Shown here piece after piece: positions 4,807 through 41,105 of a stretch of 56,633 nucleotides of DNA; within the stretch, counting starts at the first letter, position 1; the number at the start of each line of letters is the position of its first letter. Made by a program: the position numbers and the translations under genes. Below the pieces are notes generated by a model. It was not told where the DNA came from. It saw nothing but the letters and a program-made list of their open reading frames with translations, and ran no database searches. Source of the DNA: Campylobacterales bacterium (GTDB lineage: Bacteria; Campylobacterota; Campylobacteria; Campylobacterales; Sulfurimonadaceae); the NCBI GenBank assembly GCA_026390165.1, contig JAPLGM010000005.1:1-56633 (forward strand), read 5' to 3'.

Positions 4807-4888
4807 AAAAACCTCTTTTTTGAAAATTATAACATTATAGAGGATTTTAATCGTATCTACCTTTTTTTTTGTTACACTTTCGATATTC

Positions 4889-4904
4889 ATCCATAATTAT
4901 GGAT
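4889..4904. promoter_or_regulatory. Perfect 16-bp palindrome, operator candidate
   Basis: ATCCATAATTATGGAT is a perfect palindrome, 90 bases before the topA start and just upstream of the structured leader element. It is AT-rich and of operator size. No known regulator box is recognised. Confidence 0.4.
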
Positions 4905-4906
4905 TT

Positions 4907-4969
4907 GGGCTTTCTATCGCAAGAAAACCTAGTGTTAACGTAGCCAATCGGGATGAATTCCGATGGCGT
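4907..4969 (+). promoter_or_regulatory. 63-nt structured leader element (topA copy)
   Basis: This stretch is 51/63 identical, without gaps, to 40592-40654 (minus strand) upstream of rnc. The invariant core is AACCTAGTGTTAACGTAG. Two flanking hairpins are predicted: TTTCT-loop-AGAAA before the core and ATCGGGA-TGAA-TTCCGAT after it. In the rnc copy the first stem becomes CTCT/AGAG and the second is extended to nine pairs, so sequence changes while pairing is kept. Its end lies 26 bases before the topA TTG. It may be an RNA leader motif or a palindromic intergenic repeat. Confidence 0.6.
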
Positions 4970-4995: not shown

Positions 4996-7215
4996 TTGAA
5001 ATTAATCATCGTAGAGTCACCGGCAAAAGCCAAGACTATAAAAAACTTCCTCTCCAATGAGTATGAGGTTATCGCCTCCAAAGGGCATATTCGCGATTTG
5101 CCAAAAGCCCGTTTTGGGATAAAAATCGACAATGAAACCATCACCCCTGACTATAAAATCAGTGAAGACAGCACCGCAACGGTGAAACAAATCCAAGAGC
5201 TGGCGAAAAAAGCCGATACGATCTACCTCGCGACCGATGAAGACCGTGAGGGGGAAGCGATCGGATGGCACATCGCCCACGCTATCGGGAAAGATCCCGA
5301 ATCGTTGCCACGTATTGTGTTTCACGAGATTACGAAAAATGCTATTATTCACGCCTTAGAAACACCTCGAGTGATTGATATGGATCGGGTTAATGCACAG
5401 CAAGCACGCCGTTTGCTGGATCGTATCGTGGGGTATAAACTTTCTCCACTACTTGCCAGTAAAATTCAAAAAGGGCTCTCCGCAGGGCGCGTCCAATCCT
5501 CAACGCTGAAAATCGTGGTGGACAAAGAGCGAGAGATCCGTGCTTTCATCCCTGAAGAGTATTGGACGATTGATACCCTTTTTAACCCCGATATTGACGC
5601 GACATTGACCCTCTTTGAAAACGAGAAAATGGATAAACTCTCGATCAAAACAGGGGATGAAGCGGCGCGTGTCGTGACTGTTCTCAAGCAAGAGGAGTTT
5701 ACAGTAGGGGCTATCGAGACCAAAGAGCGTAAATCCTCTACCCCTCCACCCTTTATGACCTCTACGATTCAGCAAACCGCTTCATCGTCCCTCGGATTTT
5801 CCCCCAAAAAAACGATGATGGTGGCTCAGTCCCTTTATGAAGGGGTCAAAACACCGGAGGGGACATCGGGGGTTATCACCTATATGCGTACCGATTCACT
5901 CAATCTTGCAAGCGAAGCGGTGGAATCGGCGCGTGAGCTCATCGAGAGCCGTTACGGAAAAGCGTACCTCCCTGAAAAGCCCAAAGTTTATACGAAAAAA
6001 TCCAAAGGGGCGCAAGAGGCACACGAAGCAATTCGTCCGACGATGCTCTCCTTCACTCCCGAAATCGCAGCAACATACCTCAAGCCCGATGAGATCAAAC
6101 TCTATAAGCTTATCTACAACCGCTTTATCGCCTGTCAAATGAACGATGCCCGTTTTGAACAGCAAAGTATCATTTTTGAGTCTCCCAAAGCAGAGTTTCG
6201 TGCCACAGGACGTAAGCTCTTGTTTGATGGATTTTACCGTGTAATGGGAACGGATGACAAAGATAAACTTCTCCCTGTATTGACAACGGGAGATCCTATC
6301 GAACTTCAAAGTATCAGCACGGAGCAACATTTCACCGAAGCACCGTCACGTTATTCGGAAGCAAGCCTTATCAAAAAATTGGAGTCTGAGGGGATCGGTC
6401 GCCCATCAACCTACGCTCCTACTGTCTCTACCCTTCAAGCGCGTAACTACATCGAAATCGAAAAGCGTGCTATTATCCCGACTGAAATTGCCTTTACGGT
6501 GACAGAACTGTTGGAAAAACATTTCGAAGAGATTGTTGATGCGAGCTTTACCGCCACGATGGAAGAGACTCTTGATGAGATCGGTGAAGAGGGAAAATCG
6601 TGGCAGAAAATACTCCTCGATTTTTACCACCCTTTTATGGCAAAAATCGAAGTGGGAAAAGCGGAGATTGTCAGCCTAAAGGTGGCTACCCCGTTGGGGC
6701 GAAACTGTCCACAATGCGGCAGTGAACTCCTCTTGCGTTCAGGACGTTTCGGTGAATTTATCGCCTGTAGCGGTTTTCCAAAATGCAAATATACGGAACA
6801 AACCGAAGAGGCGCAAAAAGCCAACCCTGTCACGGCGGATGAATCAAGTTCTGAAGTGTGCGAAAAATGTGGCAGTGCTATGGTGGTCAAAAGCGGGCGT
6901 AATGGTCAATTTTTGGCGTGCAGTGCCTACCCTGAGTGTAAAAATACGAAAACCCTCAACCAAGAGACCAAATTTTCTGACGTTCCATGTCCCGATTGTG
7001 GCGGAAAACTAATGTGGAGACAATCGCGTCGGGGAGCATTTTGGGGATGTGAGCACTACCCTAAATGTACCTTTATCTCTAAGTTTGAACCTAGCTTGCA
7101 TAAATGTGAAGTGGAAGGGTGTGGAGGGGCACTAGCACCGCGTACCTACCGAAACAAAGAGGTATATGAGTGTACGAAATGTAAAAATCGAACACCTAAT
7201 GAGTCTGCTGAATGA
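4996..7215 (+). CDS. topA: DNA topoisomerase I
   Basis: Type IA topoisomerase (739 aa) that relaxes negative supercoils. The TOPRIM domain opens with KLIIVESPAKAKTI and carries ATDEDREGEAIGWH with its acidic metal-binding residues. The catalytic tyrosine is in YMRTDSLNL at about residue 296. Four C-terminal zinc ribbons follow from about residue 570, each with Cys pairs (such as CPQCG...CSGFPKC); the fourth is divergent. Translation must start at TTG 4996, since the conserved N-terminus begins there and AGGA lies upstream. The leader carries a structured element also found before rnc. The stop overlaps the next gene by four bases (ATGA), indicating an operon with the phosphodiesterase and bioB. 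Confidence 0.97.
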   Translation: MKLIIVESPAKAKTIKNFLSNEYEVIASKGHIRDLPKARFGIKIDNETITPDYKISEDSTATVKQIQELAKKADTIYLATDEDREGEAIGWHIAHAIGKDPESLPRIVFHEITKNAIIHALETPRVIDMDRVNAQQARRLLDRIVGYKLSPLLASKIQKGLSAGRVQSSTLKIVVDKEREIRAFIPEEYWTIDTLFNPDIDATLTLFENEKMDKLSIKTGDEAARVVTVLKQEEFTVGAIETKERKSSTPPPFMTSTIQQTASSSLGFSPKKTMMVAQSLYEGVKTPEGTSGVITYMRTDSLNLASEAVESARELIESRYGKAYLPEKPKVYTKKSKGAQEAHEAIRPTMLSFTPEIAATYLKPDEIKLYKLIYNRFIACQMNDARFEQQSIIFESPKAEFRATGRKLLFDGFYRVMGTDDKDKLLPVLTTGDPIELQSISTEQHFTEAPSRYSEASLIKKLESEGIGRPSTYAPTVSTLQARNYIEIEKRAIIPTEIAFTVTELLEKHFEEIVDASFTATMEETLDEIGEEGKSWQKILLDFYHPFMAKIEVGKAEIVSLKVATPLGRNCPQCGSELLLRSGRFGEFIACSGFPKCKYTEQTEEAQKANPVTADESSSEVCEKCGSAMVVKSGRNGQFLACSAYPECKNTKTLNQETKFSDVPCPDCGGKLMWRQSRRGAFWGCEHYPKCTFISKFEPSLHKCEVEGCGGALAPRTYRNKEVYECTKCKNRTPNESAE

Positions 7216-38804: not shown

Positions 38805-39884
38805 CTATTTTTTTTGATAATAGCCTCTAATCCCATTCATAGTGCGCCCCATATTCAGCAACACCATATCCGCAATCACCAGTGCTGCCATTGATTCGGC
38901 AACGACGGAGCCACGAACAGCAACGCATGGGTCATGTCGTCCTTTGAGCGATAGATGAACACTTTCATTGGAGGTATTCGTACTTTCTTGATCAATAAAG
39001 ATCGAGGGGGTCGGTTTGAAGTGGACGCGTATGAGTACATCATCGCCGTTGCTCATTCCTCCTAAAATCCCCCCGGAGTGGTTGGTTTTAAAACCGCTTG
39101 GGGTGATGGAATCGTTATTTTCACTGGCTAGGAGTTCAGCACTGTGAATTCCCTCCCCGATTTCGACCGCTTTGACGGCATTGATCCCCATCATGGCGGA
39201 GGCCAATACCGCATCAAGTTTGGTATACAACCCTTCCCCTAATCCTATCGGCAATCCTGATATTTTTACCGTAGCGACCCCTCCGACGGAGTCATGGTTA
39301 TTTTTTGCTTCTAAAATCGCCTCTTTTTGGGCTTCTTCACTATTTTTATCAAGGGCATAAATAGGGCTGTTTTTGGGGTAGGAAAAATCGAGCTTTTGAG
39401 CTTCGATACCGTGAATAGCACTGATACCGCTGGAAAAATCAATCCCTAAAGGCTCAAGCATTAGCTTCGCCACCGCTCCCCCTGCGACGCGTGCTGCTGT
39501 TTCACGGGCACTGGAACGTCCACCACCACGATAATCACGAATGCCGTACTTATGAAAATAGGTAAAATCAGCATGTCCTGGGCGAAAAATATCTTTGATA
39601 TTCGCATAGTCACCGCTTTTTTGATCGGCGTTATAAATCACCATCATAATGGGGGTTCCGGTGCTGATCCCCTCAAAGACACCACTAAGAATCTCGACTT
39701 TATCGGCCTCTTTGCGCGCGGTAGCAAACTCATTTTGCCCTGGTTTACGACGGTCTAGTTCGCTTTGAATATAATTCTCATCAATGGCTAATCCAGCAGG
39801 GACACCATCGAGAAGACATCCGATGGCCTTTCCGTGGGATTCCCCAAAGGTGCTAATGGTAAAACGTTCACCGAAGCGATTCAT
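38805..39884 (-). CDS. aroC: Chorismate synthase
   Basis: A 359-aa FMN-dependent enzyme making chorismate from EPSP, the last common step of aromatic synthesis. Signatures: [19 protein letters not shown] near the start, [19 protein letters not shown] in the middle, and [17 protein letters not shown] near the end. The start overlaps the rnc stop by four bases. Last gene of the pyrG-recJ-lapB-rnhA-rnc-aroC run. Confidence 0.97.
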
Positions 39885-40561
39885 TTAAGTTCCTTAGAAA
39901 GAATCTCAAGGGCAATTCTCGCCGCCTCTTGTTGAGCATGTTTTTTACTTTTTCCAAAGGCAGAGGAGTATCGTTTTCCATCAATAAAAGCGGCTATTTC
40001 AAACTCCTTTTTATGATCGGGTCCATGGGAAGCGACGAGCTGGTAATCGGGGGTGATACCGTAGTGTGCTTGAGTAAGCTCTTGGAGAGACGTTTTGTAG
40101 TCTTTAAAGAGGGAATCAAGGGAGATGTCTTGGTGTACAAGTTCGAGAAGTTCTACGGCGATATTTTGAACCGTAAGAAGTCCTGATTCGAGATAAATTG
40201 CCCCCATAACCGCTTCGAACGCATTGGCAAGGAGAGAGCTTTTGGTTCGCCCGTGGTTATTTTCTTCAGCGTTGGAGAGGTAAATATACTCACCAAGATG
40301 AAGGTGGTTGGCAAGGAGGGTAAATCCATCTTCATTGACAAGAGAAGCTCTCATTTTGGAAAGATTCCCTTCATCGAAATGGGGAAACTTTTTATACAGA
40401 TATTCTCCGACGATCAGATCCAATACCGCATCGCCTAAAAATTCGAGTCGCTCATTATTGTAGGGCTGTTTGTGGCTTTTGTGCGTCAGCGCTTCAATAA
40501 GGAGCTTCGAATCGTGGAATTGGTACCCTAAGCGTTGTTGTAGGGTTTGTAAGTTGTTCAT
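39881..40561 (-). CDS. rnc: Ribonuclease III
   Basis: A 226-aa double-stranded RNA endonuclease. RNase III signature [19 protein letters not shown] (about 35-53), second acidic cluster [14 protein letters not shown], and a C-terminal dsRNA-binding domain ([24 protein letters not shown]). Start ATG 40561, since [15 protein letters not shown] fits the family and AAGGA lies upstream; a 15-codon upstream extension runs through the leader. The leader holds the 63-nt element also seen before topA. RNase III commonly cuts its own leader hairpins, so autoregulation is conceivable but not shown. Confidence 0.95.
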
Positions 40562-40591: not shown

Positions 40592-40654
40592 ACGCAATCG
40601 GAACACGTCCCGATTGACTACGTTAACACTAGGTTCTCTTTACGTAGAGTGCCC
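40592..40654 (-). promoter_or_regulatory. 63-nt structured leader element (rnc copy)
   Basis: Ungapped match (51/63) to 4907-4969. Core AACCTAGTGTTAACGTAG; hairpins CTCT-ACGTAA-AGAG and CAATCGGGA-CGTG-TTCCGATTG (nine pairs). A further strong stem GCACGC-AA-GCGTGC lies directly upstream at 40657-40670, next to the rnhA stop. It fills the 112-bp gap between rnhA and rnc. Confidence 0.6.
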
Positions 40655-40673
40655 GCGCACGCTTGCGTGCTTT

Positions 40674-41105
40674 TTACACTAATCCACTTTTATATTTTTC
40701 TGCTTCTTCACGGGCGATTTGATCGCACCGTTCGTTTTCGATATGACCGTTGTGCCCTCGTACCCACACCCCTTGGATACGGTGACCTTTGGAGACTTCG
40801 AGGTACTGTAGCCATAAATCTGGGTTTTTTACTTTGGCAAAATTGCGTTTTACCCATCCCCCTATCCATTCGTTGATCCCACGGATAACGTAGCTTGAAT
40901 CGGAGATAATGGTGACATTACACGGCTCTTTAAGGGCACGTAATCCCTCAATTACCCCCAACAGCTCCATTCGGTTGTTCGTGGTATGTTTTTCACCGCC
41001 ACGGACGATTTTTTCCACGTCACCGAAACGTAAAATCGCTCCAAACCCACCAGGACCTGGATTACCCAGTGCGGAGCCGTCACTGAAAAGAGTTATTGTC
41101 TTCAA
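40674..41105 (-). CDS. rnhA: Ribonuclease HI
   Basis: A 143-aa enzyme degrading RNA in RNA-DNA hybrids. Catalytic acids are in LFSDGSALGNPGPGG (Asp), NNRMELLGVIEGL (Glu) and IISDSSYVIRGI (Asp), with a fourth near the C-terminal RCDQIAREEA; the basic protrusion WVKRNFAKVKNPDLW is present. Start ATG 41105 overlaps the preceding LapB-like gene by 26 bases. Confidence 0.96.
   Translation of the reverse strand: MKTITLFSDGSALGNPGPGGFGAILRFGDVEKIVRGGEKHTTNNRMELLGVIEGLRALKEPCNVTIISDSSYVIRGINEWIGGWVKRNFAKVKNPDLWLQYLEVSKGHRIQGVWVRGHNGHIENERCDQIAREEAEKYKSGLV

Follow-up and report, generated by a model that had tools for sequence, protein, structure and literature searches.

A structured repeat family at gene junctions of sulfur-oxidising Campylobacterota, probably a non-autonomous mobile element

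The closest described systems are the repeats of the GTAG-tagged REP superfamily (Nunvar 2010, PMC2817692; Di Nocera 2013, PMC3733652). The latter records GTAG repeats in Sulfurovum NBC37-1, and the 3′ module of some relatives of the element described here may already be catalogued among them. The literature on repeats in Sulfurimonas, Sulfurospirillum and Sulfurovum yielded nothing beyond PMC3733652, and no tested copy matched an Rfam covariance model. The element is real and structured, and as a whole it appears to be undescribed in the sources searched.

Two copies in the window

The window, i.e. the whole 56,633-nucleotide stretch of Campylobacterales DNA that was analysed, carries two copies. 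A sequence-only reading of this DNA had reported that the leaders of topA (4907–4969, plus strand) and rnc (40592–40654, minus strand) match at 51 of 63 positions without gaps. This was confirmed; with both strands scanned, the next-best match to the 63-nt stretch in the window reaches 33/63. The 18-nt core, AACCTAGTGTTAACGTAG, is identical in both copies, as had been stated, and no third occurrence was found in the window with up to three mismatches allowed (100 dinucleotide shuffles also gave none). The genes had been correctly named: topA (4996–7215, plus strand; TIGR01051, 841.9 bits; TTG start at 4996) is the 3′ neighbour of the first copy and rnc (39881–40561, minus strand; TIGR02191, 235.5 bits; ATG start at 40561) that of the second. 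The 5′ neighbour of the second copy is rnhA (40674–41105, minus strand; PRK00203, 192.5 bits), which ends at 40674.

Just 5′ of both 63-nt stretches, outside the bounds first assigned to them, lies a further hairpin, P1 (4889–4904 and 40670–40657). The complete class-A element of the topA leader, from P1 through GCGT, occupies 4889–4969 on the plus strand (76.7 bits with covariance model R1, described below), and that of the rnhA/rnc gap occupies 40592–40670 on the minus strand (71.9 bits). In the topA copy, with all features on the plus strand, P1 is ATCCAT-AATT-ATGGAT (4889–4904), the 5′ arm of which overlaps the pre-insertion host sequence CATCCATAAT. P2 (TTTCT..AGAAA) lies at 4911–4926 and the core at 4926–4943, with covariation at columns 54–61 and 55–60; the core contains a mini-hairpin, GT-GTTA-AC (4932–4939), and the GTAG tag (4940–4943). 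P3, CCAATCGGGA..TTCCGATGG with a conserved G·U pair, follows at 4944–4966. The rnc copy, on the minus strand, has P1 (GCACG-CAAG-CGTGC) at 40657–40670, P2 (CTCT..AGAG) at 40636–40649, the core at 40618–40635 with its mini-hairpin at 40629–40622 and GTAG tag at 40621–40618, and a nine-pair P3, CAATCGGGA..TTCCGATTG, at 40595–40616. Both stems re-pair, in the first with TTTCT/AGAAA against CTCT/AGAG, as originally described, and in the second with seven pairs plus a bulged CC/GG against nine uninterrupted pairs. The P2 loop of the topA copy is ATCGCA; the usual GCYGA has been lost, so a full pseudoknot is impossible there. In the rnc copy the loop (ACGTAA) also deviates from GCYGA. Folded as single sequences, the window copies were not clearly better than shuffles (z of −1.6 and −1.2), and the structural case thus rests on comparison.

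A promoter-like TTGTTA-17-CATAAT is present just 5′ of the topA copy (4869–4897) and is conserved in element-free relatives. Its second hexamer (CATAAT) overlaps the 5′ arm of P1.

Fold and spread of the two classes

The core was searched in the 2.64-Mb host genome with up to three mismatches, which gave 11 places, all of the same architecture. Model R1 was built from these and added a 12th strong copy, which brings the class-A total for this Sulfuricurvum-like genome to 12 (the lineage is taken from the rnc relatives, which are mostly Sulfuricurvum). Alignment A5 comprises 79 copies from four genomes. The class-A element is about 80–100 nt long (conserved unit 62–100 nt) and consists, from 5′ to 3′, of the variable hairpin P1, GYGRGC, P2, the core, GTAG, P3 and GCGT. 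The P2 loop GCYGA pairs back to RGC, forming a pseudoknot; the core carries the mini-hairpin G-Y-GUUA-R-C and P3 carries the conserved G·U pair. The stems are of only about 5–10 pairs, a length that bears on the option of an RNase III target raised from the sequence alone.

For P2, P3, the RGC:GCY pseudoknot and the mini-hairpin, 94.4% of the cells in A5 are paired, compared with 77.5% after shuffling and at most 61% after sliding. Double changes were found in 15 of the 17 pairs, including seven of the eight in P3, and none of 500 shuffles reached the observed value by any measure. This strong covariation across 79 copies upholds the earlier description of a structured multi-copy element. The pseudoknot pair at columns 4–17 (GC 48, AU 25, GU 4) and the core pair at columns 55–60 (UA 40, CG 34, UG 4, AU 1) were detected by mutual information and are absent from the R1 search model, and so cannot be artefacts of a fitted alignment. 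P1 is variable in sequence; 41 of the 79 copies have a P1 that exceeds the 95% level of shuffles. An outer GRG:CYY stem (columns 3–52, 4–51 and 5–50) was rejected, as 4–51 is paired in just 71% of copies and 4–17 explains the variation better. G·U pairs outnumber A·C by 16:0 in the lower stem of P3 and by 7:1 in the core, and the conserved P3 pair is G·U in 60/79 copies, from which it follows that folding takes place in the strand as written; the excess is absent in P2 (5:4) and in the pseudoknot (6:6).

The covariance-model search of the host genome and other Campylobacterota that had been proposed from the window alone was carried out and returned many copies. R1 matches 112 of the 121 genomes of the family, with 1–58 class-A copies per genome; across the phylum class A occurs in four families and in none of the other families sampled (50/298 genomes). 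Similarity between copies is 0.688 within a genome and 0.680 between genomes; copies within a genome being no more alike, there is no fresh burst. Three class-A copies form a tandem array with a 92-bp period (L118:1317–1566; G025 C1:86828–87076), and the same genome has a second array with a 94-bp period (C1:2234253–2234507). One class-A copy lies in a tailed-phage contig (L330:5685–5750; IMGVR_UViG_3300032212_000702), where it is placed within the cluster of head genes, between the portal and head protease genes and 22 nt upstream of the latter. On contig C2 of genome G051 class-A copies crowd toward both ends (about 0–0.35 and 1.96–2.36 Mb), which would be an origin-side bias if the contig begins at the origin; no replication-strand bias was seen by eye in this genome, the origin of which is not mapped.

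R1 also picked up, more weakly, a sibling class, B, which has 13–16 copies in the host genome (L024–L036, L047), none of them in the window, and was found with its own model, R2, in the same four families as class A. Its consensus is TGCCTC..GAGGCAAGCTTTAGTGCCNNAGCGGCWAGCGTAG followed by P3. Class B has a fold of its own, composed of P1, a GCC:GGC pairing that would form a pseudoknot with a mini-hairpin, and the P3 of class A, with the conserved G·U pair in 11/11 sequences. The topA and rnc copies of class A are also recovered with R2 (E about 1e-6), so the two classes look related.

Placement, insertion and candidate mobilising enzymes

Orientation and placement were counted using gene calls from a simple codon-bias caller. 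Where the upstream gene is on the same strand, the model begins a median of 25 nt after its stop, an interval mostly occupied by P1; where the adjoining gene is on the opposite strand, its stop lies a median of 5 nt beyond the model end. Copies are sense in 38 cases and antisense in 27, which is not a significant difference (p = 0.21). The sequence-only reading had called for a check of flanking genes and orientation: the copies mostly lie after stop codons at gene junctions, and they share neither a gene function nor an orientation. Of the two marks of an ordinary repeat that it named, a lack of orientation bias was found and a lack of covariation clearly was not.

Class-A copies are present at the groES–groEL, pgk–tpiA, exbB–exbD, rpmF and dnaK junctions, among others. 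The joined flanks of the 12 host-genome copies were searched in relatives, and the element is missing from relatives at 10 of the 12 loci. The groES–groEL, pgk–tpiA, exbB–exbD, rnc and other junctions are element-free in relatives, and at rpmF only some relatives carry it. At topA the host and G072 carry the element, G082 retains a decayed copy, and the site is empty in six of eight relatives; at the rnc site, among about 33 relatives examined, the element is present only in L209 and L230. A regulator specific to topA and rnc, or to nucleic-acid enzymes, one of the options first raised, was consequently rejected: the orthologous leaders are mostly empty, the neighbours are varied, and the copies lie in both orientations and are not always sense. 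The option of a family of intergenic repeats, offered at the same time, is supported by the dispersed copies.

Direct repeats of about 20–29 nt flank L132 and its orthologue L230, L121b, L152 and the host exbB–exbD copy; they include the stop of the preceding gene as well as the start or ribosome site of the following one. At the rnhA–rnc junction of L230 and L132 the element lies between two copies of the rnhA 3′ end, an arrangement that leaves rnhA with its stop and rnc with its ribosome site. Mean flank similarity is 17.01, exceeding nearly all of 2000 permutations (15.85 ± 0.34, largest 17.06). Individually significant direct repeats were found in only 4 to 7 of the 79 copies, one of them a tandem pair, and a target-site duplication is clear at about four loci and weak or absent at most. 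These few copies suggest a long flanking duplication. No terminal inverted repeats were seen by eye, the exact ends of the element not being fixed.

Tens of insertions between genes in sulfur-oxidising Campylobacterota make a tiny mobile element likelier than a topA/rnc switch. We consider that it is probably a non-autonomous mobile element, and that its occurrence beside topA and rnc is probably incidental. In the mechanism proposed, the element joins a pseudoknotted domain on its 5′ side to a REP-like module, GTAG plus hairpin, on its 3′ side, and an enzyme would recognise it in single-stranded, folded form, as either ssDNA or RNA, and actively mobilise it. It would insert at gene junctions, mostly directly 3′ of stop codons and in either orientation, sometimes duplicating about 20–29 nt, so that the upstream gene keeps its stop and the downstream gene its ribosome site; effects on neighbouring genes would be incidental. 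In favour of this reading are the dispersed copies, the fold, the element-free loci of relatives, the direct repeats, the two orientations with equal pairing, the tandem arrays and the copy in the phage contig. Four observations count against it. No mobilising enzyme was found, copies within a genome give no sign of a fresh burst, individually significant direct repeats are confined to a few copies, and pair changes between orthologous copies include compensatory ones (19 compensated, 12 wobble and seven broken; the three rpmF comparisons among them are not independent), which hints at selection in place or at conversion between copies. The stronger proposal, of a new kind of mobile element that is pseudoknotted and strand-specific, moves through a folded single-strand intermediate by means of an enzyme that is neither Y1 nor a reverse transcriptase, makes long gene-sparing duplications at junctions and is under structural selection after insertion, is rather unlikely.

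At the rpmF junction (L181, L313, L314, L317, L320 and L321) orthologous P3 stems are quite different, while the flanking genes are about 86–92% identical. This points to conversion or replacement, or else to compensatory change at a very high rate.

The main alternative is a functional operon RNA, located in leaders or between cistrons. A protein such as an RNA chaperone or RNase III would bind or cut it, the RNA would set how stable the mRNA is or how well it is translated, and its usefulness would account for its spread. The RNA-like pseudoknot, the G·U pairs and the compensatory changes of orthologous copies would fit such an RNA, as would the many copies within core operons, at a median of 24 nt from the next start. 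However, 27/79 copies are antisense to both neighbours and equally intact (pairing of 0.964 in sense and 0.974 in antisense copies), the sites are empty in most relatives and the neighbouring genes have no common function; we regard this alternative as unlikely.

If the element were instead a long variant of a GTAG-tagged REP, its mobilising enzyme would be a RAYT (Y1) transposase with the GTAG–P3 module as substrate. In such REPs the tag likewise adjoins an imperfect hairpin with G·T pairs, and the sites are just past stop codons, between co-directional and convergent genes (PMC3733652); Y1 transposases are encoded in 64/121 genomes. The host genome has three RAYT-like Y1 genes (L049–L051; G000 C2:18687–18917, C13:157021–157308 and C8:46267–46461), but these are flanked by a different REP (CTCGTTCCCACTC..GAGTGGGAATGCAT), R1 did not find the element near 33 Y1 loci, and a Y1 gene is missing from seven of the 12 genomes that carry at least 30 copies. 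RAYT genes thus do not track copy number; mobilisation by RAYTs was rejected and is judged improbable. The REP type found at the host Y1 genes also occupies the rnhA–rnc junction of L208, where the first P1 bases persist.

A SINE-like bacterial retroelement, its RNA copied by a reverse transcriptase, would share the RNA-like fold, the long duplications, differing in length, that flank a few copies and the lack of visible terminal inverted repeats, but is very improbable, since RVT_1 is absent from the host genome and many copy-rich genomes (G051, G062, G076 and G080) and has no link to copy number, and a poly-A-like tail is absent. Neither Y1 transposases nor reverse transcriptases explain the spread.

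The two classes make up an apparently undescribed family of structured repeats that seeds core operons (topA, rnc, groESL, dnaK, rpmF and pgk–tpiA), in their leaders and between their cistrons, in several families of sulfur-oxidising Campylobacterota. Were it moved by a so far unrecognised enzyme, it would give access to a new route of transposition; were it kept for its RNA, it would be a regulatory part that has spread rapidly. Before a leader in one of these genomes is called a gene-specific riboregulator, it should be checked for the element.

Comparison with known systems

An integron attC site was rejected on inspection, as a conserved GTTRRRY end and cassette arrays are both lacking. 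As in GTAG-tagged REPs, a GTAG adjoins a hairpin (6–13 bp in REPs) with compensatory stem changes and G·T pairs, and the copies are intergenic, adjoin gene 3′ ends and occur in either orientation. REPs are 20–40 bp long and present in over 100 copies, whereas the conserved unit here is 62–100 nt, with 1–58 copies per genome, adds P1, a pseudoknotted P2 and the core mini-hairpin, and has no RAYT flanked by inverted copies or otherwise associated. The 5′ domain covaries as part of a unit with GTAG–P3, and no solo GTAG-hairpins were found, 60/60 matches carrying a class-A or class-B 5′ domain in a sample centred on elements. The element is REP-like in its 3′ part and its placement, which falls short of identifying it as a REP.

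MITEs and other non-autonomous insertion elements are similarly short, gene-free, dispersed and polymorphic among relatives, some with flanking direct repeats. The present element differs in its strand-specific, pseudoknotted structure, in having no terminal inverted repeats visible by eye and in its longer flanking repeats (about 20–29 nt), present in few copies. We know of no parent transposon for it. Structured RNAs of the Rfam type (riboswitches and leader RNAs) have neither its unrelated downstream genes, nor its two orientations, nor its variable presence at orthologous sites; what the element shares with them is a compact pseudoknotted fold and strong covariation.
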